This document shows, one piece after another, positions 9,156 to 42,452 of a stretch of DNA of 64,000 bases. Source of the DNA: a bacterium (GTDB lineage Bacteria > Planctomycetota > Planctomycetia > Planctomycetales > Planctomycetaceae). Within the stretch, counting starts at the first letter, position 1, and every line of letters begins with the position of its first letter. The position numbers and the translations under genes are program-made. The notes under the pieces are model-generated. The model made no database searches and had not been told where the DNA came from. It worked only from the letters and a program-made list of their open reading frames with translations. Location: the NCBI GenBank assembly GCA_016125225.1, contig WGME01000004.1, forward strand, positions 248,001-312,000. Reading direction: 5' to 3'.

Positions 9156-12100
9156 ATGAAACGCGTAAGTCTCCCCTTGCTGATCACATTCAATGTGCTC
9201 ACTGCTGCCCTCTGGGCACAACCTCCGGGAGTCGTCGTCCAGAATGGACCGGGCGGTCCACGTCCTGTCCCTCCGAATGGTCAACCTGGCCAACCGCCGG
9301 GACAACCCCCCAATGGTGCCCCCGGAGCTGATGGCAAACCAGCCGACGCCAAGAAAGAGGGGGATGCCGCCAGCCCACCCGCCATCACCCGACCGGCGAC
9401 ACCCAAGAGTTCCGGCGATCGCCAGCAACTGACGATCCGGCCCGATTCTGCAGGTAAGGTTCAACTCAATTTTCAGGGCCAGAAGTGGCTCGATGTACTC
9501 GACTGGTATGCGGAAATCGCCAATCTCAGTCTCGACTGGCAAGAGGTCCCGGGTGACTATCTGAACCTGCGGACGCAGCGCAGCTACTCCGTCGAAGAAA
9601 TTCGGGATGTGCTGAATCGGCATCTGATGGACCGGGGCTATACGCTGCTAAGGAGCGGCGAAGTTCTGATCGTCGCGAATCTCAAAAAGCTCGATCCGTC
9701 ACTCGTTCCGCGTGTCATGCCGGAAGACCTTGAGAATCTGCAGGAACATGAGTTCGTCAGAACCTCGTTCAAGCTCGACTGGTTGATCGCTGAGCAAACC
9801 GTTGAAGAACTCAAACCGCTCCTCAGTCCGAATGGAAAAATCTGGGCGTTGAAGGCGACTAATCGGATTGAAGCACTAGATGCCGTCGGCAATCTGCGAT
9901 CCATTTATGATGTGCTCAAAGATGAGCAGTCAGGGCATGGGCAGGAACGCCTCGTTCGCGAATTTCGCCTGGAGCATACGCGAGCCGATGAAGTCTACGA
10001 ACTGTTGCTGGGGTTGCTGGGCAAAGAGAAGCCCAAGAAAGACGAAGGCCCGATGGACCCTCGTCGCATGATGCAGATGCAGCAGCAGATGATGCAGATG
10101 CAGCAAATGCAACAGAATCAACAAGGCGGAAAACCTCAGCCACAGAAGCCCGGCGAAATTCATCTCGTGGTGAATCGCCGTGAAAACAGCATTCTGGTGA
10201 ATGGCCCGCCCGATCAGGTGGCCATCGTCGAACAGGCCGTCAAACAACTCGATGTGTCACCCGACTCGGCCAATTCGCTGCTGCAGAATCCGAATCGGAT
10301 GCAGATTTATCGCCTGGCTTCGATCGATCCCGAACCCTTGGTCGAGACATTGTCGGAGGTTGGTAACCTCGATCCGGAAACGCAGCTCCGCGTCGATGCA
10401 AAGAACAAGTCGATCATCGCCTACGCCACTTTGGCCGACCATGTCACGATTCGTTCGATGATTGAGAAGCTGGATGGCACCGACCGACGCTTTGAAGTCA
10501 TTCGTTTACGCAAGCTGGAAGCAGACTACGTTGCGGGCACCATTCAGTTCATGATGGGCGAAGAAGAAAAGCCGCAGCAACAGCGGCGTTCTTACTACTT
10601 CTATGACCCGTTCGGTGCGGGTTCCGGCGGCTCTTCGGAAGAGAATGCATCACGCAAGTTTCGGGTTGATGCGGATGTTGAACATAATCGGCTGCTCGTT
10701 TGGGTGAACGATATCGAGTTCGAAGAGATTCAGAATCTGCTGGTCAAACTGGGGGAAATCCCCCCGGCTGGATCGCGTGCCGCCACGTTCCGCAGGCTCG
10801 ATTCCATTCCCTTGGAAGATGCTCCCTACCTGATTGAACGGCTGCGTGAAGCCTGGCCAGGATTGGGGGACAATCCGCTGCAGCTCAAAATTCATCCGCG
10901 AGCTGATGACGGCGATCAACCCACGTTGCCCTTGCCCCTGAATCGACCTACAAAAGAAGACCCGTCAACCAGTGTTGATCCCAGCGAGTTCCTGGAAACG
11001 TTGCCCACCGTTTTCCGCTTTTCCAAATCATCGGTCAGTCATACCGGGGCAGCCAGAACGCTGGCTGTCGCTCATGAGAAAGCTGACTCGTCAATTGTTC
11101 GTCCGCCGGCTCCGTCTCTGCCCGAAACTCTCGACAGAGGACCGCAGATTGTGACGATTGGCCCCGCGCAACAAGATCATGCAATCGCACAACTCCCCCG
11201 GGAACGAATCGAGGAACGCCCCACGTCGAAGCCTCCCGTGATGATCGAACTCGATCCGGAAGGCCGTTGGGTGCTGCGTTCGGAAGACACCGCCGCACTC
11301 GATCAATTAGAAGATTTGCTGAATGAACTCTCGCCACCCCGTCGCGATTACAAATTGTTCCAACTTCAGCACAGCACCTCGTGGGCCTATGGGATTGCCC
11401 TGACCTTGGAAGAGTTCTTCAAGGATGAAGAAGAGAAGTCCAGCCCGAACACCCGACGCTACTACTATTACGACTCCGCCCCGCAGGAAAAGAAGGAAGC
11501 CAATCGGCTTTCGAAGCGTCGCCCGTTGAAGTTTATTGCCGATAGTGATTCCAACTCGATCCTGGTTGTCGGTGCCGACCCACATCAACTGCGAACCATC
11601 GCAGATCTCATTGAATACTATGATCAGCCGGTCGCGTCTGATGCCAAGGCTCTCCGGCGGACCGAGATTTTTCAGATTCAGCATTCCCAGGCGCAGACCA
11701 TTGCTGAGGCAATTAAAGATGTCTATCGCGACCTGTTGAGTGAAAATGACAAAGCGCTGCAACAGCAGAATCAGAACAAGGAGCAGCAACGGGCTTCCGA
11801 CCGATCCGTGACCTATGTCTATGACACCTTTGGAGATTCGGGCGGCGATAAGAAGGCTTCTGATCCGCCTGCCCCGGTACGGTTCAAAGGGGCTTTGTCG
11901 ATCGGAATTGATGAAGTTTCGAATTCGATCATTGTGTCATCTACAGAAACGCTCCTTCTGAACATCCGTATGATTGTGGAACGGCTCGATCAGGCTGCGG
12001 TTCCCAAGCTGCCGACGATGCAGGTGGTGCACGTGGGCCAGAATGTCCCGACCGATGTCCTGCAGGAAAAACTGGCAAAGTTGCTGAAAGAACAGAAACG

Positions 12101-35005: not shown

Positions 35006-36307
35006 CTAAGCAAACAGTTCCTGCACTGGTGTGCCACCATCGGTGATGGGGACCGGGCGATCTCCGGCGTACAACGTTTCCTTCGGATTGATACCCAAGG
35101 CATTGTAGACCGTGGCATGCAGGTCGGGCACGGAGACGGGCCGCGAGACGATTTCCATCGCCAGCTCGTCGGTCTCACCGATGGTGAGGCCATTCTTCAG
35201 GCCGCCACCCGCCAAAGCGACGGTGAAGCATTTGCCATGATGACCGCGTCCGCCACCACCATCGAAACCGGCGGGGCGACCGAATTCACTCATGACCATG
35301 ATCAACGTTTTGTCGAGCAGCTTGACGCGTTCCAGATCGAGGATCATCGCCGCCAAGGCCTGATCGAGTTCCTGGATGAGCTTGTGCTGGTTCAGTATGC
35401 CCTGATTGTGGACATCCCAACCGGTGCCATTCAGGAAGTTGAGGTTGTGGGAGACTTCGACCACACGCACCCCGGCTTCCAGCAAGCGACGGGTGAGCAG
35501 GCAGCGTTGACCGAACTCGCCGCCGTATTCATCACGCAGTGAGCCCGATTCTTCCGCAAGGTTGAAGAGACGCATGAATTGCGGCCCGCCATAACGCATG
35601 GCTTCACCGATCATGCCGTCATAGTTCTGAACCAGCTTGTTACCTTGTTCTTTGGCCAGATAGGCTTCTCGCATCTTGGCCAACATGGCTTCACGGCGGT
35701 ATTGACGATCGGCAGTGATTTCGGCGGCCCGCGCGAGTCCCGCCGGACCAGATTCCGTATCGGTCAGATAGACATAACCCGCTTTTGCACCCAGATAGCC
35801 GGGACCACGGGTCGCGCTGGGATAACCGATGAGGATATAGGGCGGCACACCATCGCCGGCGGCACCCCGTTGATCGGCGATCACCGAACCAATTGACGGA
35901 TAGGTCAGCGTCTCGCTCGTCGGGTAGCCGGTATGCATCCGATTGGTCGCGGCGGCATGTTCATCAATGACGTCGTGATGCACCGTCCGGACCAGGTTGA
36001 AGCGGTCCATGATCGGCGCACACTTCGAAAAGTGTTCGCAGACCTGAGTGCCATGCACCGCGGTATCAATCGCCGAATAGTACGATCCCGGCTTCTTGGA
36101 CTTCGGGTCGCCGAGCCGTTTCGGGTCCCAGGTGTCGATCTGTCCGGAACCACCCCCGAGCCAGACGATCACACAGTGTTCCGCCTTGCCCCGCGGGATA
36201 TCAACCGTGCTGCCGTGTTCGCCTTCGTTGGCCCGCAGATTGGCCGCGAAACCCGCAGCGGAAAGTGCGGCAGCAGACTGCGTGAGGAAATCGCGACGAG
36301 CGAGCAT
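35006..36307 (-). CDS. DUF1501 domain-containing protein (Tat-exported)
   Basis: 433 residues. The ATG at 36307 has GGAG seven bases upstream and opens the twin-arginine leader LARRDFLTQSAAALSAAGFAA. Family blocks: VIVWLGGGSGQIDTWDPK, VHHDVIDEHAAATNRMHTG, GVRVVEVSHNLN, VMSEFGRPAGFDGGGGRGHH and the C-terminal VPDLHATVYNALGINPKE. The frame reads open to 36442, but that upstream part carries no leader. Like the copy at 17434 it lacks an adjacent DUF1549/DUF1553 gene; it lies 196 bases downstream of a zinc-ribbon membrane protein on the same strand. Function of the family is undefined. Confidence 0.92.
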   Translation of the reverse strand: MLARRDFLTQSAAALSAAGFAANLRANEGEHGSTVDIPRGKAEHCVIVWLGGGSGQIDTWDPKRLGDPKSKKPGSYYSAIDTAVHGTQVCEHFSKCAPIMDRFNLVRTVHHDVIDEHAAATNRMHTGYPTSETLTYPSIGSVIADQRGAAGDGVPPYILIGYPSATRGPGYLGAKAGYVYLTDTESGPAGLARAAEITADRQYRREAMLAKMREAYLAKEQGNKLVQNYDGMIGEAMRYGGPQFMRLFNLAEESGSLRDEYGGEFGQRCLLTRRLLEAGVRVVEVSHNLNFLNGTGWDVHNQGILNQHKLIQELDQALAAMILDLERVKLLDKTLIMVMSEFGRPAGFDGGGGRGHHGKCFTVALAGGGLKNGLTIGETDELAMEIVSRPVSVPDLHATVYNALGINPKETLYAGDRPVPITDGGTPVQELFA

Positions 36308-36503
36308 GGCAAACTCCGGCGGTGTCGAGCGGCTGACACGGAACGAACAGGGGTGAATTTCACCCATCGGAAACTTCAATTGTGACAGAGTCCTGATCGA
36401 CCCGCAATGTGAATTGACCACCGATTGCTGTCCGGCGTTCAACTAAGCCTTCTAATCGTCACGGTTTTCCATTTTCCGCTGGATCATCTTTGAAAATAGG
36501 GAG

Positions 36504-38402
36504 TTAGGGGGCGGCAGCCTCCGGCATCGGCATGGCCTCTGCGGGGGCCGCGTCGGGGGCTACTTCCTGTTGCGCCGCCTCTTCCTGTTGCTGATTCGGG
36601 TCGAAGCCGAGCGCCGCCGAGGCGGCCACCACTCCCACCACAATCAAGATCACAGTAATCAAGCTGACAAACAGCGACATCAGGCACACCAGGCAGCCCG
36701 TACGGGCTTCCATCCAGTGGGTGGATGTGTACACAATCGCGCCGATAGCCCCAATCAAAGACAGCCCGATGGCAATAAGGCCCACAATCATCAGTGCAGG
36801 AACGAAGGCAACCACGAACCCACAGACGATCAGCACGACGACCGAAACCGGCCAGACACCAACCCACAGCCCCCAACCGATTCCTTCTTCCCAAGCGGCT
36901 TGAGTAATCATCGAGCTGCCATTGAAGAAGGCGACACGCAGGCCAATGAAGAATCCGGCCAGCAGTCCGACCACCATGCCTTCTTCACCGAGTGCCCCCG
37001 AAACAAATCCGATGACAAGACCGATAATCATGGAAATGGCAAAGACGGCGACGGCATCCACCGTCACCTGAGCCATGGTCTTGGGCTTTTCGTCTTCCTC
37101 GTCCTCCGGACGGGCTTTCGATACGTATTTGTATTCCTTCGCCAGCGCGACCAGGTCCAATGAGTCGCGGAAGTAATAGATAAACTGGCCATTGACCCGG
37201 CAGGAATAAGCGGCGGGAAAGCCGAGGAGAAGACACGCTGTCGCCCAGAGAATGCTTGGCACCACAAACAGTGAATAGCTGATCTTATGATATTCCTTAT
37301 CGCCGCGCGGATCGTCAGCAAACTTGGCCTGTTCCTTTTTGCCAGCATTCTCCTTGGCGGCTTTGAAGCGAGCCGTATCGGCGTTTTCTTCCATCTGCGC
37401 GACGACCTGGTTGATCTGCGGGCCATAGAGCGCACCAATGGTCGCAAGACATCCAATCGCCGGGGCATGCAGCATCAATGTCAGGAACAACCAGATCAGG
37501 GTTGGCTTAAGTGTTCGGAACCAGGCGGGAGCAACTTTCCAGAACATCCAGCCGGGGGCTTGAACCGGCATCACAAAGTGACCCGTAGAAATCGTGATCA
37601 TCGCCAGCACCGGGAGGTAACCCAGCCCGGCAAAAATCCAGAAAACAAAGGGCGGCAGTCCTACGAAAGAGGTCAGAATCCAGCCGAACAGCAAGGGGAC
37701 CAGCATCACCGGCAGGGCAAACACAATGTGCCAAGCCACCCAGCGAATGCCGAGCGCGCTGCACAGAAAGAAGTCAAAGTTCACACGCTTCAGTTTGTCT
37801 TTCTTCTGCAGTGTCCCCACCATGACTTCCTGGTCCATGAACCACAGCCATCCGGGGATCATCAATCCACTGACCGTGGCGCACATCGCAAAGAACATCC
37901 GCGGCGGCCACATCGGGATGTAGAGGTACATGAACGCACACAGGAACATCAGCATGGAGGCGATGAGGGTATACAACATCGTCCGCCAGGCGAGTCCCTG
38001 ATTCTTGAAGACAAACTTCCAGTTGCTCTTCCAGAGCCCGGCATAGAATTTATCGGGATCGGGACCTTTGAGCCGGCGCTTCTGGGCCTTTTCCCCGAGA
38101 CCACCAATGCTCGAATCGTAACCACATTTCGGGCATTCGGTTTCATCTTCGTCACGGTGCGACATGTCGTAGCCGCACTTGCCGCAGATGCGGACGTTTT
38201 CGTCCTCCGCCTGCCGCAAATCGAGCGCGGCGATGGCATCTTCCGAGTCGACCGGCTTTTTGCTCGCCGACTTTTTCGGTTTGTCAGCGGCGGGGACTTT
38301 GACCTTGGTATCGCAACTCGGGCACTTGATCGACTTGCCCCGGGCCGCATCAGGAGCTGTCAGAACTTTATCACATCCGGTGCAGCGAACTTTGACGGAC
38401 AT
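36504..38402 (-). CDS. Zinc-ribbon multi-pass membrane protein
   Basis: 632 residues. The N-terminus has two cytoplasmic zinc ribbons: CTGCDKVL...IKCPSCDTKV (~7-33) and CGKCGYDMSHRDEDETECPKCG (~75-97). A membrane domain follows with about ten hydrophobic segments, and the C-terminal tail is Gln/Glu/Ala/Pro-rich. The first ribbon has a form common at the N-termini of many planctomycete membrane proteins. The ATG at 38402 has AGGGTGAG just upstream; a GTG two codons earlier is less likely. No transporter or enzyme motif was recognised, so function is unknown. Confidence 0.82.
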   Translation of the reverse strand: MSVKVRCTGCDKVLTAPDAARGKSIKCPSCDTKVKVPAADKPKKSASKKPVDSEDAIAALDLRQAEDENVRICGKCGYDMSHRDEDETECPKCGYDSSIGGLGEKAQKRRLKGPDPDKFYAGLWKSNWKFVFKNQGLAWRTMLYTLIASMLMFLCAFMYLYIPMWPPRMFFAMCATVSGLMIPGWLWFMDQEVMVGTLQKKDKLKRVNFDFFLCSALGIRWVAWHIVFALPVMLVPLLFGWILTSFVGLPPFVFWIFAGLGYLPVLAMITISTGHFVMPVQAPGWMFWKVAPAWFRTLKPTLIWLFLTLMLHAPAIGCLATIGALYGPQINQVVAQMEENADTARFKAAKENAGKKEQAKFADDPRGDKEYHKISYSLFVVPSILWATACLLLGFPAAYSCRVNGQFIYYFRDSLDLVALAKEYKYVSKARPEDEEDEKPKTMAQVTVDAVAVFAISMIIGLVIGFVSGALGEEGMVVGLLAGFFIGLRVAFFNGSSMITQAAWEEGIGWGLWVGVWPVSVVVLIVCGFVVAFVPALMIVGLIAIGLSLIGAIGAIVYTSTHWMEARTGCLVCLMSLFVSLITVILIVVGVVAASAALGFDPNQQQEEAAQQEVAPDAAPAEAMPMPEAAAP

Positions 38403-38627
38403 GCGCACTCACCCTGGACGAAACGACGTCGGACCTCCCCATCATGAATCACTCGAATTCATGGGAAGCCAGATCCGTCGGAGACGACACCAACACGGAA
38501 GAGAGACGGGAAATTTCGCGAACAACGTGGGATACTTTACGCGCTGCAGGCAGGCTTTGCACGTCGGCAGCCCGTTTGCGAAAGAAAGTTCCCGGACTCT
38601 GCCGGACAGGTTCGATCTCTCAAGCCA

Positions 38628-38736
38628 ACAAAAAACCCCTGGGAATCTTGTCCGCAGGGGTCTGGTTGTGTGCCTGGGTGGATAATTACGAATGCCGGCT
38701 GCAACAACGTCCCGAACTGGCACACCCACAAAGAAT
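38628..38736 (-). ncRNA. Candidate small RNA, about 108 nt
   Basis: A stand-alone leftward transcription unit: near-consensus promoter at 38743-38770, predicted start near 38736, and a strong terminator hairpin with T6 ending near 38630. In between, GTGTGCC (38725-38719) can pair with GGCACAC (38674-38668). CACCCA/TGGGTG at 38723-38728 and 38675-38680 can form a competing helix that shares bases with the first, so two folds are possible. No matching protein gene lies upstream that the terminator could serve. It does not show the conserved loops of 4.5S/SRP RNA, 6S RNA or tmRNA that I know. A small peptide cannot be excluded, but frames inside it either lack a start or run past the terminator. 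Confidence 0.55.
38630..38661 (-). terminator. Rho-independent terminator
   Basis: On the leftward strand, ACCCCTG (38661-38655) pairs with CAGGGGT (38641-38635) around a 13-base loop and runs directly into TTTTTT. This is the cleanest intrinsic terminator I noticed in the window. Confidence 0.85.
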
Positions 38737-38742
38737 TCACCT

Positions 38743-38770
38743 CTTATACCGTGCAAACCCTGGCCGTCAA
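38743..38770 (-). promoter_or_regulatory. Sigma-70-type promoter for the candidate small RNA
   Basis: Leftward TTGACG at 38770-38765 and TATAAG at 38748-38743, spaced by 16 bases; each hexamer matches consensus at five of six positions. It points away from the rightward genes and into the terminator unit. Confidence 0.6.
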
Positions 38771-38947
38771 TGAGAATCCAGACCGTCTGCAACGATTTTA
38801 GTGATCGCTTCGGCGAGTTCCCTCTATATGTCGAGAGTCCGTGACCTGAACTTTTCCTTCGCATCAGTGTCGCTGGTCGCATTGTGAAGCGATTCGGATA
38901 TACTGGAGGTTGCGTGCGAATTTCTTTGCGTGGGAGATCGCTTTCAG

Positions 38948-39235
38948 ATGCCACTGTACATTTATGAAGAGGTTCTCCCTGATGGGACCGGGGGGAACAC
39001 GTTTGAACTTCTGCAAAGCATCCACGACCCCGCGTTGACGAAACACCCGGAAACCAAGGTCCCCGTCCGCCGCAAAGTGACCGCTCCCTGGACCCCGAAG
39101 CCGTTCAACAAGATCGACAAAAAAGAACAGCTCTCGGACAGAAGCCTCGAAAAACTGGGCTTCACCAAATACGTGAAGACCAAGAACGGCTACGAAAAAA
39201 CCGCCGGTGATGGACCGGAACTGAAGAAACATTGA
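38948..39235 (+). CDS. FmdB-like small protein lacking zinc-binding cysteines
   Basis: 95 residues. Starts MPLYIYEEV, as FmdB-type zinc-ribbon proteins do (MPxYEYxC). It continues with TFELLQSIHDPALTKHPETK and VPVRRKVTAP, which aligns with the FmdB core where one expects two Cys pairs around the LT-x-CPxCG-PVRR segment. Every cysteine is replaced and the whole protein has none. The lysine-rich C-terminus (FNKIDKKEQL...KTKNGYEKT) is extended. The ATG at 38948 has GGGAGA ten bases upstream. It precedes rsfS by 20 bases on the same strand, so the two are probably co-transcribed. Structure is probably kept without zinc; function unknown. Confidence 0.78.
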   Translation: MPLYIYEEVLPDGTGGNTFELLQSIHDPALTKHPETKVPVRRKVTAPWTPKPFNKIDKKEQLSDRSLEKLGFTKYVKTKNGYEKTAGDGPELKKH

Positions 39236-39255
39236 GCTACGAACTGAACAACGCC

Positions 39256-39666
39256 ATGACGAGCACTCTGGAAACACAACGCCTTCGCAGCCTGGACGAT
39301 GCCTGCCGCTGCGCACAGATCGCCGAAGAATTTCGCGGCCGAGACACGCTGGTGCTCGATCTGACCGAAGTCACCCCGATCTTCGATTACTTCATTCTGA
39401 CCACTGGCACCAATCCGCGGCAGTTGACCGCCTTGGCGGAAGAGGTCCGCATGGTCATGAAGCAACGCGGCAATCGTCCGTTAGGCACCGAAGCCGATGC
39501 GGAGAATTCGTGGGTGGTGCAGGATTATGGCGACATCGTGCTGCACGTCTTCCAACCAGCCGCCCGCGAACTTTATGATCTCGAACGGTTGTGGGCCGAT
39601 GCCAAGGTCATCGACTGGCGGGCACATCTGGGCTTACCCCCGGCGAAAACCACCGAAGCACTATGA
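39256..39666 (+). CDS. rsfS: Ribosomal silencing factor RsfS (Iojap/YbeB)
   Basis: 136 residues. Seen: the RsfS core VLDLTEVTPIFDYFILTTGTNPRQLTALAEEV, then GTEADAENSWVVQDYGDIVLHVFQPAARELYDLERLW, the conserved WxxxDxGDxxxHxF...YxLExLW pattern. Family role: binds ribosomal protein uL14 and blocks subunit joining, down-regulating translation when nutrients are short. The ATG at 39256 is chosen; an upstream TTG at 39232 overlaps the previous gene's stop. The gene lies between an FmdB-like gene and argS, a translation-related neighbourhood. Confidence 0.94.
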   Translation: MTSTLETQRLRSLDDACRCAQIAEEFRGRDTLVLDLTEVTPIFDYFILTTGTNPRQLTALAEEVRMVMKQRGNRPLGTEADAENSWVVQDYGDIVLHVFQPAARELYDLERLWADAKVIDWRAHLGLPPAKTTEAL

Positions 39667-39696
39667 TCCGCCTGGTAAGGTGTTTTGAAGTTTCTT

Positions 39697-39726
39697 GAAG
39701 CCCAGGGATCGCCATCCCTGGGCCTC
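39697..39726. repeat. Dispersed 30-bp palindrome, copy 1
   Basis: GAAGCCCAGGGAT, a 4-base centre and ATCCCTGGGCCTC form a near-perfect hairpin between rsfS and argS. The reverse complement of this copy matches the element at 48263-48292 at 28 of 30 positions. It might also work as a terminator for rsfS, but no T-run follows. Confidence 0.75.
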
Positions 39727-39754
39727 TCATTTTGCATAACGGTGCCGATCGACC

Positions 39755-41722
39755 ATGAACTTTCTCTCTGAACTTCGTGCCCGGTTGTCGCAAGCTCTCA
39801 CCGGACTGGTGGACGATCCGGCTCCGTATGTCGGCATGCTCAAGCCCGCGCAAGATGCCAAGTTCGGCGACTTTCAGGCCAACTGTGCCATGTCGCTCAA
39901 AGGTGTACTGAACAAGCCGCCGCGCGACATCGCCACGCTGATCGTTTCTCGACTGTCGCTCGACGATCTCTGTGAACCGCCGGAGATCGCCGGACCGGGG
40001 TTCATTAACTTCCGCCTGAAGACCGACCAGATTGCCACCGCGACACAGCAACTGATCAGGGATGATCGGCTTGGTGTCGCACCGGTCACAGAACCCCGCA
40101 CGTATGTCGTCGACTTCTCCGGCCCGAATGTTGCGAAGCCCATGCACGTGGGCCATTTGCGGTCGACGGTCATCGGCCATGCCCTCGACAAAATCCTGCG
40201 GTTCCTCGGTCACACGGTGATCAGTGACAACCATGTCGGCGACTGGGGCACGCAGTTCGGCATGATCATCTACGGTTACAAACATTTCCGTGATGACGCC
40301 GCTTATCAGGCCGATCCCGTCCGTGAACTCGCGCGGTTGTACCGGCTGGTGAATCAACTCGGCGACTATCACACGTTGGGAACCGAACTGCCGGCGTTAG
40401 AAGCGTCGGTCACCACCGCGACGCGCACACTGGAACTCGCTCAAGCCACGGCAACTAAGAAACCGGAAGACAAAGATCTGGCGCGTGCGGCCCGCAAAGC
40501 GCAGAACGATCTGAAGTCGGCTCAGGACGAACTTGCTTCCGCTCAGAAGAAACGGCAGGCGGTTGAGAACGATCCTGCCCTCAAATCGCTTGCCGATGCT
40601 CATCCCCAGATCGCGGAGCTGGCCCGCGCCGAAACGGCCAAACTCCACGCGGGGGACGCTGAGAATCAGACACTGTGGGACCAGTTCATCCCGCAGTGCC
40701 TCGCCGAGTTGCAGAAGATGTATGCCCGGTTTGATCTGAAATTCGATCACACGCTGGGCGAGAGTCATTTCAATCCGCTGCTCGCCGGTGTAGTGGAGGA
40801 TCTGCTGCAGCGCGGCATCGCGACCGAAAGCGATGGAGCCATCTGCGTCTTCGTCGACGGCTTCGCGGCGCCGTTCATCATTCGCAAGGCGAACGGGGCC
40901 TACACCTATGCGACGACCGATCTTGCTACGGTGCAATATCGCGTCAAGGAGTGGCAGGCCGATGTCATTCTGTACGTGGTCGATGCCCGGCAGAGCGAAC
41001 ACTTCCAGCAGCTTTTTGCCACGTGCCGCAAGATCGGCTTCGATACCGTCGACATGCGGCACGTGAGTTTCGGCACCGTGCTGGGGGAAGATAATCGTGC
41101 GTTCAAAACGAGATCTGGTGATACAATTGGGCTTGAAAGCTTGCTTGATGAAGCAATCGATCATGCTCGAATAATTGTTCGAAAGAACATCGACGGGAAA
41201 GTCCACGGTGCCGACCTGAGTGCTTCCGAAATCGATGAGATTGCAAAAGTTGTCGGCATTGGGGGGATTATCTACGCCGACCTGCATCACAACCGCGACA
41301 GCGATTACGTCTTCAGCTGGGAGAAGATGCTCGCCAAAACCGGCGACACGGCGACTTATATTCAATACGCCTATGCGCGTGCCCAAGGAATCTTCAATAA
41401 ACAATCAATTGACATCAATTCCTTGCGTTGTCAATCACAGAATATCCACATTAGCAGACTTGAAGAGCGAACGCTCGCATTGCAATTGATTGGATTCCAA
41501 AGTGCACTTTTGGACGTTGTGACTGATTATCGTCCGCACTATTTGACCCAGTACTTGTTCAAGCTGGCCAATGATTTCGCGACATTCTACGAGGAATGCC
41601 CTGTGCTTAAAGAAGCAGATGCTGGCATTCGGCAAAGTCGATTGCTGTTATGTGATCTAACTGCAAGGATCTTAAAGAAGGGTCTTGAGTTGCTTGGCAT
41701 CGAGGTCCGCGAAATCATGTGA
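39755..41722 (+). CDS. argS: Arginine--tRNA ligase
   Basis: 655 residues, longer than the usual 550-600. N-terminal tRNA-recognition domain; class I signature KPMHVGHLRSTVIG (~128-141); SDNHVGDWGTQFGM, the ArgS-specific block; FKTRSGD in the KMSKS position (~451); and the C-terminal DALR anticodon-binding domain (~530-655). A charged, Ala/Gln-rich coiled-coil insert spans ~215-298, where most homologues have a short loop. From about base 41100 the DNA changes character: codons such as AAT, ATT, TTA and TTG rise in two stretches (41100-41200 and 41390-41720), unlike the strongly GC-ending codons before. The protein reads intact throughout, so it should be active. Confidence 0.96.
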   Translation: MNFLSELRARLSQALTGLVDDPAPYVGMLKPAQDAKFGDFQANCAMSLKGVLNKPPRDIATLIVSRLSLDDLCEPPEIAGPGFINFRLKTDQIATATQQLIRDDRLGVAPVTEPRTYVVDFSGPNVAKPMHVGHLRSTVIGHALDKILRFLGHTVISDNHVGDWGTQFGMIIYGYKHFRDDAAYQADPVRELARLYRLVNQLGDYHTLGTELPALEASVTTATRTLELAQATATKKPEDKDLARAARKAQNDLKSAQDELASAQKKRQAVENDPALKSLADAHPQIAELARAETAKLHAGDAENQTLWDQFIPQCLAELQKMYARFDLKFDHTLGESHFNPLLAGVVEDLLQRGIATESDGAICVFVDGFAAPFIIRKANGAYTYATTDLATVQYRVKEWQADVILYVVDARQSEHFQQLFATCRKIGFDTVDMRHVSFGTVLGEDNRAFKTRSGDTIGLESLLDEAIDHARIIVRKNIDGKVHGADLSASEIDEIAKVVGIGGIIYADLHHNRDSDYVFSWEKMLAKTGDTATYIQYAYARAQGIFNKQSIDINSLRCQSQNIHISRLEERTLALQLIGFQSALLDVVTDYRPHYLTQYLFKLANDFATFYEECPVLKEADAGIRQSRLLLCDLTARILKKGLELLGIEVREIM

Positions 41723-41735
41723 TGTGAGTTTTGAC

Positions 41736-42452
41736 ATGACCATCACCAATGGCACCGCAATTATTGTCGGCGCGTCCAGTGGCATGGGGGCCGCGACGGC
41801 TTTGACTCTGGCTCAACACGGCTGGCGGGTCTTTGCAGCGGCGCGGCGACGCGAACGGCTCGATCAACTCGCTGAATCCCACGAACAGATCACGCCCATA
41901 GTCGCCGATGCGACCGTGGAAGCCGATGTCGCCCGGATGATTGCGACCGCGGTCGAAGCCACCGGTCGGGTTGATCTGCTGGTCTATGCGACGGGAGCCA
42001 ACATTCCGGATCGGGCTCTCACCCGGTTGACGCCGGCCCGCTGGCAGGAATTGCTCACCGCGAACCTGACCGGAGCGTTTCTGTGCACGCAACAGGTGTT
42101 GCCGGTGATGCGGCAGCAGCAGGGCGGGTTGATCATTTATCTCTCTTCGGCGGCGGTCCAGCGACCCGATGTCTCCGGCGTGGCCTATCAGGCCAGTAAG
42201 CACGGCATGGTCGGTTTGGCGCATGGCACGCGGCAGGAAGAACGGGCGAACGGCATCCGCACATCGGTCATTTTTCCCGGATTGTGTGACACCGAGATTC
42301 TGCAGCAACGTCCGGTTCCCACGCCGCAAGATGTGCTCTCACAGGCGCTTGCGCCGGAGGATGTCGCCGCCGCCGTGCTGTTTCTGGCTCAATTATCGCC
42401 CCGAGCGCTGGTGCCGGAACTGCCTTTGGTGCCCACAGGATTGTGGTCTTAA
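41736..42452 (+). CDS. SDR-family oxidoreductase
   Basis: 238 residues. Glycine-rich cofactor site AIIVGASSGMGAATALTLA; YATGANI in the NNAG position; catalytic Ser in IIYLSSAAV; and YQASKHG with the Tyr-Lys pair. The ATG at 41736 begins 13 bases after argS ends; the frame is open further upstream inside argS but that part is a shadow. Substrate unknown. It probably shares the argS transcript. Confidence 0.88.
   Translation: MTITNGTAIIVGASSGMGAATALTLAQHGWRVFAAARRRERLDQLAESHEQITPIVADATVEADVARMIATAVEATGRVDLLVYATGANIPDRALTRLTPARWQELLTANLTGAFLCTQQVLPVMRQQQGGLIIYLSSAAVQRPDVSGVAYQASKHGMVGLAHGTRQEERANGIRTSVIFPGLCDTEILQQRPVPTPQDVLSQALAPEDVAAAVLFLAQLSPRALVPELPLVPTGLWS

Follow-up and report, generated by a model that had tools for sequence, protein, structure and literature searches.

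The window is a continuous stretch of 64,000 nucleotides from a Planctomycetaceae genome of 6.35 Mb in 42 contigs. Two divergent genes in it are separated by a gap of 545 bases, from the ATG at 38402 on the minus strand to the ATG at 38948 on the plus strand; the initial annotation had given the same length. The minus-strand gene encodes a 634-aa protein with hydrophobic stretches and a zinc-ribbon-like N-terminal part (both read by eye), for which Pfam returned nothing but a HypA match below the cut-off; homologs of the gene were present in 154 of the 170 family genomes, this one included. On the other side lies a gene for a small zinc-ribbon protein, followed by rsfS, and shortly 3' of rsfS (39700–39723, plus strand) there is a hairpin, GCCCAGGGATCGCCATCCCTGGGC, with a 10-bp stem and a weak T tail. 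Within the gap, a promoter-like site and an intrinsic terminator delimit a putative non-coding transcript (Table 1).

Table 1. Features of the gap and its flanking genes, numbered by position in the window.
Feature	Position	Strand	Remarks
Downstream gene, 634-aa protein	36504..38408	-	start 38408/38402
Promoter-like motif TGCAAA-16-TAAAGT	38534..38561	-	between terminator and 634-aa gene, which it may serve
Putative non-coding transcript, ~105–113 nt	38628..38740	-	predicted from promoter and terminator
Intrinsic terminator hairpin and T6	38630..38663	-	dG −17.4 kcal/mol; pair probability 0.99–1.0
Helix GTGTGCC (38725–38719)/GGCACAC (38674–38668)	38668..38728 region	-	ensemble probability ~0.15–0.17
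Competing helix TGGGTG (38728–38723)/CACCCA (38680–38675)	38668..38728 region	-	ensemble probability ~0.15–0.17
Sigma-70-like promoter TTGACG-16-TATAAG	38743..38770	-	10/12 consensus bases; predicted
Divergent neighbor, small zinc-ribbon protein	38930..39235	+	Zn_ribbon_8 below cut-off; start 38930/38948
rsfS, next after zinc-ribbon gene	39232..39666	+	RsfS above its Pfam cut-off

The promoter reported in the initial annotation was present on the minus strand, with its −35 element at 38770–38765 and its −10 element at 38748–38743. By weighted score it ranked fourth among all positions of the window, and it was one of four sites with at least 10 of the 12 consensus bases in 128 kb (both strands). 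A stricter ready-made scan of 36000–42000 reported no promoters, and passed over this site because it accepts only −10 elements with T as the sixth base. The terminator hairpin, which lies about 80 bases past the promoter, has a 6-base loop and one bulge and runs into six Ts. It had been described as the clearest T6 terminator of the window, and among the 22 minus-strand hairpins followed by T5 runs it was the only one to reach −14 kcal/mol or below, so that it is the strongest on its strand; five plus-strand hairpins also passed this mark, all with T5 rather than T6, and one of them, at 11668, was slightly stronger (−17.5 kcal/mol). A ready-made scan of 36000–42000 listed 13 terminators and missed this one, probably because of the bulge in its stem. 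The T-run stands on the minus-strand side only and no gene-like ORF ends at the hairpin, and therefore any transcript terminated there must begin in the gap or run antisense to the neighboring gene.

RNA polymerase would be predicted to start at about 38737–38735 on the minus strand and to stop at the T-run, releasing a free RNA of ~105–110 nt with the terminator hairpin at its 3' end. With 4 sites that have at least 10 of 12 consensus bases and 6 hairpins of −14 kcal/mol or stronger in 128 kb (both strands), a simple estimate gives ~0.04 promoter–terminator pairs expected by chance at a distance of 60–250 nt, and one was seen; such a same-strand pair with the spacing of an sRNA gene is more than chance, though it was chosen post hoc. 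The transcript sequence occurs as a single copy in the genome, and the five ORFs tested in the gap carried no coding signal, each having a codon score below all 51 held-out real windows. A peptide translated across the terminator had been named beforehand as an observation that would speak against an RNA unit. The corresponding frame, of 67 aa from GTG 38740, is indeed open; its codon score of −0.245 was nevertheless under every one of the 51 real windows and was matched by 55 of 255 wrong-frame windows, its ribosomes would have to translate an RNA crossing a strong terminator, and a longer ORF on the same strand (38442–38954), which was the Pfam query in place of the 67-aa frame, had no match. 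A short protein gene is thus scarcely credible here.

Bacterial intergenic base-pairing sRNAs typically have their own promoter, a length of 50–250 nt and a 3' intrinsic terminator, and often a narrow distribution. The unit resembles them in its promoter-like site, size, 3' intrinsic terminator, intergenic position and narrow distribution, as well as in the lack of protein-coding signal; it differs in that no relatives of it were found and that its transcript and any target or chaperone dependence are putative.

The initial annotation went further and proposed an RNA with two mutually exclusive folds, as in switching RNAs. Both helices could be confirmed, and they have bases in common. The minimum-energy fold, as read from its dot-bracket string, contains neither of them exactly and uses a third register, GTGGGT/ATCCAC. 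The 73-nt part preceding the terminator folded at −19.2 kcal/mol, against a shuffle mean of −19.3 (sd 3.0; z 0.02), and 47% of 1000 shuffles folded as well. The whole RNA had a z of −1.93, with 5 of 200 shuffles equally good, and this excess stems from the terminator, because the part without it has none. When sequences were shuffled 2000 times each, helices of 7 and 6 bp in competition with each other turned up in 35 cases (1.75%) for the pre-terminator part and in 197 (9.9%) for the whole RNA; since the two helices had been selected post hoc, these counts were not taken as evidence. Bistability was typical of such sequences, 62% of 300 shuffles being equally or more bistable, and the terminator formed when either helix was forced.

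A fold competing with the terminator was also sought, in terms of equilibrium energies as opposed to folding during transcription. When the 3' arm of the terminator was barred, the RNA reached only −22.6 kcal/mol compared to −38.7 for the full molecule, i.e., 16 kcal/mol weaker, and with the terminator nearly certain in the ensemble, no competitor of the kind seen in riboswitches and attenuators was found. The best fold of such an unfinished RNA combines the GTGTGC helix with pairing of the RNA's 5' part to the 5' arm of the terminator, and is weaker than the shuffle mean (z +1.2; 90.5% of 1000 shuffles as good or better). A switching RNA of the riboswitch or RNA thermometer type, alternating between the two helices, could draw on their shared bases, on their similar ensemble probabilities, on the rarity of such a pair among shuffles of the pre-terminator part and on the fact that one of them accompanies the other pairing open to the terminator's 5' arm in the unfinished RNA. 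Against this stand the ordinary bistability, the greater frequency of such pairs in whole-RNA shuffles, a terminator that forms either way, and the failure to find an Rfam family, conservation or a relative in which the pairs could be compared. Such a switch is extremely unlikely, and of the original proposal it is the stand-alone terminated unit that holds as the best reading, with the switching folds unsupported.

The initial annotation also stated that there was no protein gene for the unit to serve, which is wrong, since the 634-aa gene (36504–38408) starts ~220 bases downstream of the terminator on the same strand. Attenuation leaders and riboswitches place a terminator upstream of a same-strand gene and can form alternative pairings. 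The unit shares the first property with them and alternative pairings can be drawn for it; it departs from them in having no similarly strong competing fold, a separate promoter-like motif downstream and no conservation. This motif, TGCAAA-16-TAAAGT, is weak by the general consensus (the best-scoring position within 38565–38545 ranked 225th). Of 30 homologous upstream regions, this one included, 14 carried a similar motif 121–157 bases ahead of the gene start, when counted with a pattern derived from the same sequences; four genera contributed to these 14 (with six, four, three, and one region), and the other 16 lacked it. Upstream regions of 30 homologs, from the 154 genomes that have one, were further inspected for hairpins within 32 bases ahead of T5 runs. 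None of the other 29 had a comparable hairpin, the next best being −11.5 kcal/mol, so that, as a leader of the 634-aa gene, the unit is not conserved. Nor was any structure found to be kept before orthologs of the gene, whether in the 30 upstream regions or with a structure model over the 170 genomes.

An attenuator-type 5' leader, in which the terminator would decide whether polymerase continues into the 634-aa gene, is suggested by the position and strand of that gene and by the fold available before the 3' arm of the terminator exists. The weakness of this alternative fold relative to the terminated one and to shuffled sequences, the ~220 intervening bases with their recurring promoter-like motif, and the absence of a comparable hairpin from the other upstream regions all count against it. 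A separate unit is favored over a leader because of that motif's place after the terminator and ahead of the gene, and overall the leader appears unlikely.

Conservation was searched in a family set of 170 genomes, this one included, of which 130 were of high quality. A DNA search of the set, scoring four candidates per genome, found no homolog of the unit in the other 169. Besides the unit itself it gave seven short matches of 23–44 bases (E 0.002–0.008); where examined, these appear to be chance matches or to belong to other genes. Two (L002 and L004) lay inside coding genes, L003 and L005 have the look of coding sequence, and in three (L006–L008) the matching part was a terminator. The last of these stands in another genus of the family, where a leuA-type gene is preceded by a terminator and by a leader peptide rich in leucine, MNNLLLTLSLLLLPS (~1501–1640 of locus L008, minus strand), an arrangement that looks like a leucine attenuator; L006 and L007 matched through the same terminator. 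Two relatives from the same genus, G001 (99% complete) and G002 (64%), had no DNA match with all candidates scored. An nhmmer search over 94 loci, with the unit's own copies excluded, had a best E of 0.32, and a DNA search of plasmids and phages gave no match.

A structure model was also run, built from a single sequence entered twice and hence without covariation and weakly informed. Over 16 sources it recovered the window itself only, and under stricter filters it identified no relative in the 169 other family genomes, returning four matches with E between 0.2 and 0.5, of which three were rejected for their location. Two of these, L101 and L104, are related to each other and lie antisense in what we take to be an RNase E/G-type gene (by the ORF list for L101 and by sequence for L104); L102 falls at the end of a presumably DegP-type gene, with that gene's terminator; and L103 is known from its alignment only. 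The covariance comparison proposed in the initial annotation therefore had no relative in which paired bases could be compared. As a yardstick, the genome's own 6S RNA was recovered by DNA search in five of eight chosen relatives with all candidates scored, at 75% identity in G001, and was missed in G002, G023, and G005. Since it was found in G001, a well-conserved RNA would probably be detectable in that genome, and a fast-changing one perhaps not. The unit is not detectably conserved in the relatives searched.

As the initial annotation had judged by eye, the unit is unlike SRP RNA, 6S RNA and tmRNA. No Rfam family, SRP and 6S RNA included, matched the window at the gathering cut-off; the region 38400–38960 had five weak matches (best E 1.3), and ARAGORN predicted no tmRNA or tRNA genes in the window. 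The genome's 6S and small SRP RNAs are located elsewhere, on contigs C4 and C26. The former (L098, 1501–1698) scored 65.6 bits with the Rfam model and the latter (L099, 1501–1597) 40.3 bits, just above the cut-off of 40. The unit is like 6S RNA (RF00013) in being a small stand-alone RNA, and unlike it in that the genome's own 6S RNA is 198 nt long, lies at another locus and is found in most of the chosen relatives.

The gene neighborhood was compared by tblastn in nine loci, this one included, within ~1.5 kb of the 634-aa gene. Its zinc-ribbon neighbor was absent from this distance in the eight relatives examined. In G001 and G002 a different divergent gene stands beside the 634-aa gene, and its best match in the present genome is on contig C16, at 65% identity; the G001 protein had 55 matches in this genome, where it belongs to a large paralogous family. 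The zinc-ribbon gene, sampled at 23 loci with the upstream regions of six inspected, lies 170 kb from rsfS in G002, next to what is presumably a superoxide dismutase-like gene, and at a contig end in G001. With the two genes unpaired in all eight relatives, and with the neighbor found in G001 and G002 matching best on C16, the gap looks recent, and the gap bearing the unit is probably particular to this lineage.

These results bear on whether the unit has a function. A fortuitous promoter, with a hairpin that stops antisense or spurious transcripts in a gap of recent rearrangement, would account for the lack of detectable conservation, the chance-level folding of the core and the unstable gene pair, and it would do so less easily for a promoter and a terminator that are each among the best of the window and stand together on one strand. 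Such a functionless origin is a possible, if somewhat doubtful, explanation. A young, lineage-specific intergenic unit that yields a free non-coding RNA has about an even chance of being correct, and a stand-alone unit is the reading that best fits the promoter and terminator, the ORFs' lack of coding signal and the separate promoter-like motif downstream. The sequence itself shows the promoter-like site, the terminator, the absent coding signal, the single copy and the absence from searched relatives, while transcription, a free RNA and any target are inferred. A bolder version, a newborn sRNA gene in a new 545-base gap made by a rearrangement joining two gene neighborhoods, already equipped with its own promoter and terminator and with two folds that would determine which part can pair, seems very unlikely.

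By its anatomy only, the unit is a plausible sRNA candidate of the ordinary kind, matching no RNA family searched. Should it be transcribed, the unit would add a lineage-specific sRNA to a phylum with seemingly few on record: a review table gives 8 for the whole PVC group versus 345 for Proteobacteria, numbers that were taken as distinct sRNAs (PMC9029176). No planctomycete sRNA map appeared by title among the literature matches listed.

If functional, the RNA would most likely be an ordinary trans-acting base-pairing sRNA, its 3' end protected by the terminator stem. A scan for targets among the starts of 46 ORFs called mechanically in the window (at least 130 aa, a length that excludes the zinc-ribbon gene), run without accessibility, gave no convincing candidate; the best z was −2.8, with −1.2 for rsfS and −0.2 for the 634-aa gene. 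The stretch UUCGUAAUU at ~38692–38684 was mostly unpaired in the predicted ensemble and would be the candidate pairing part.
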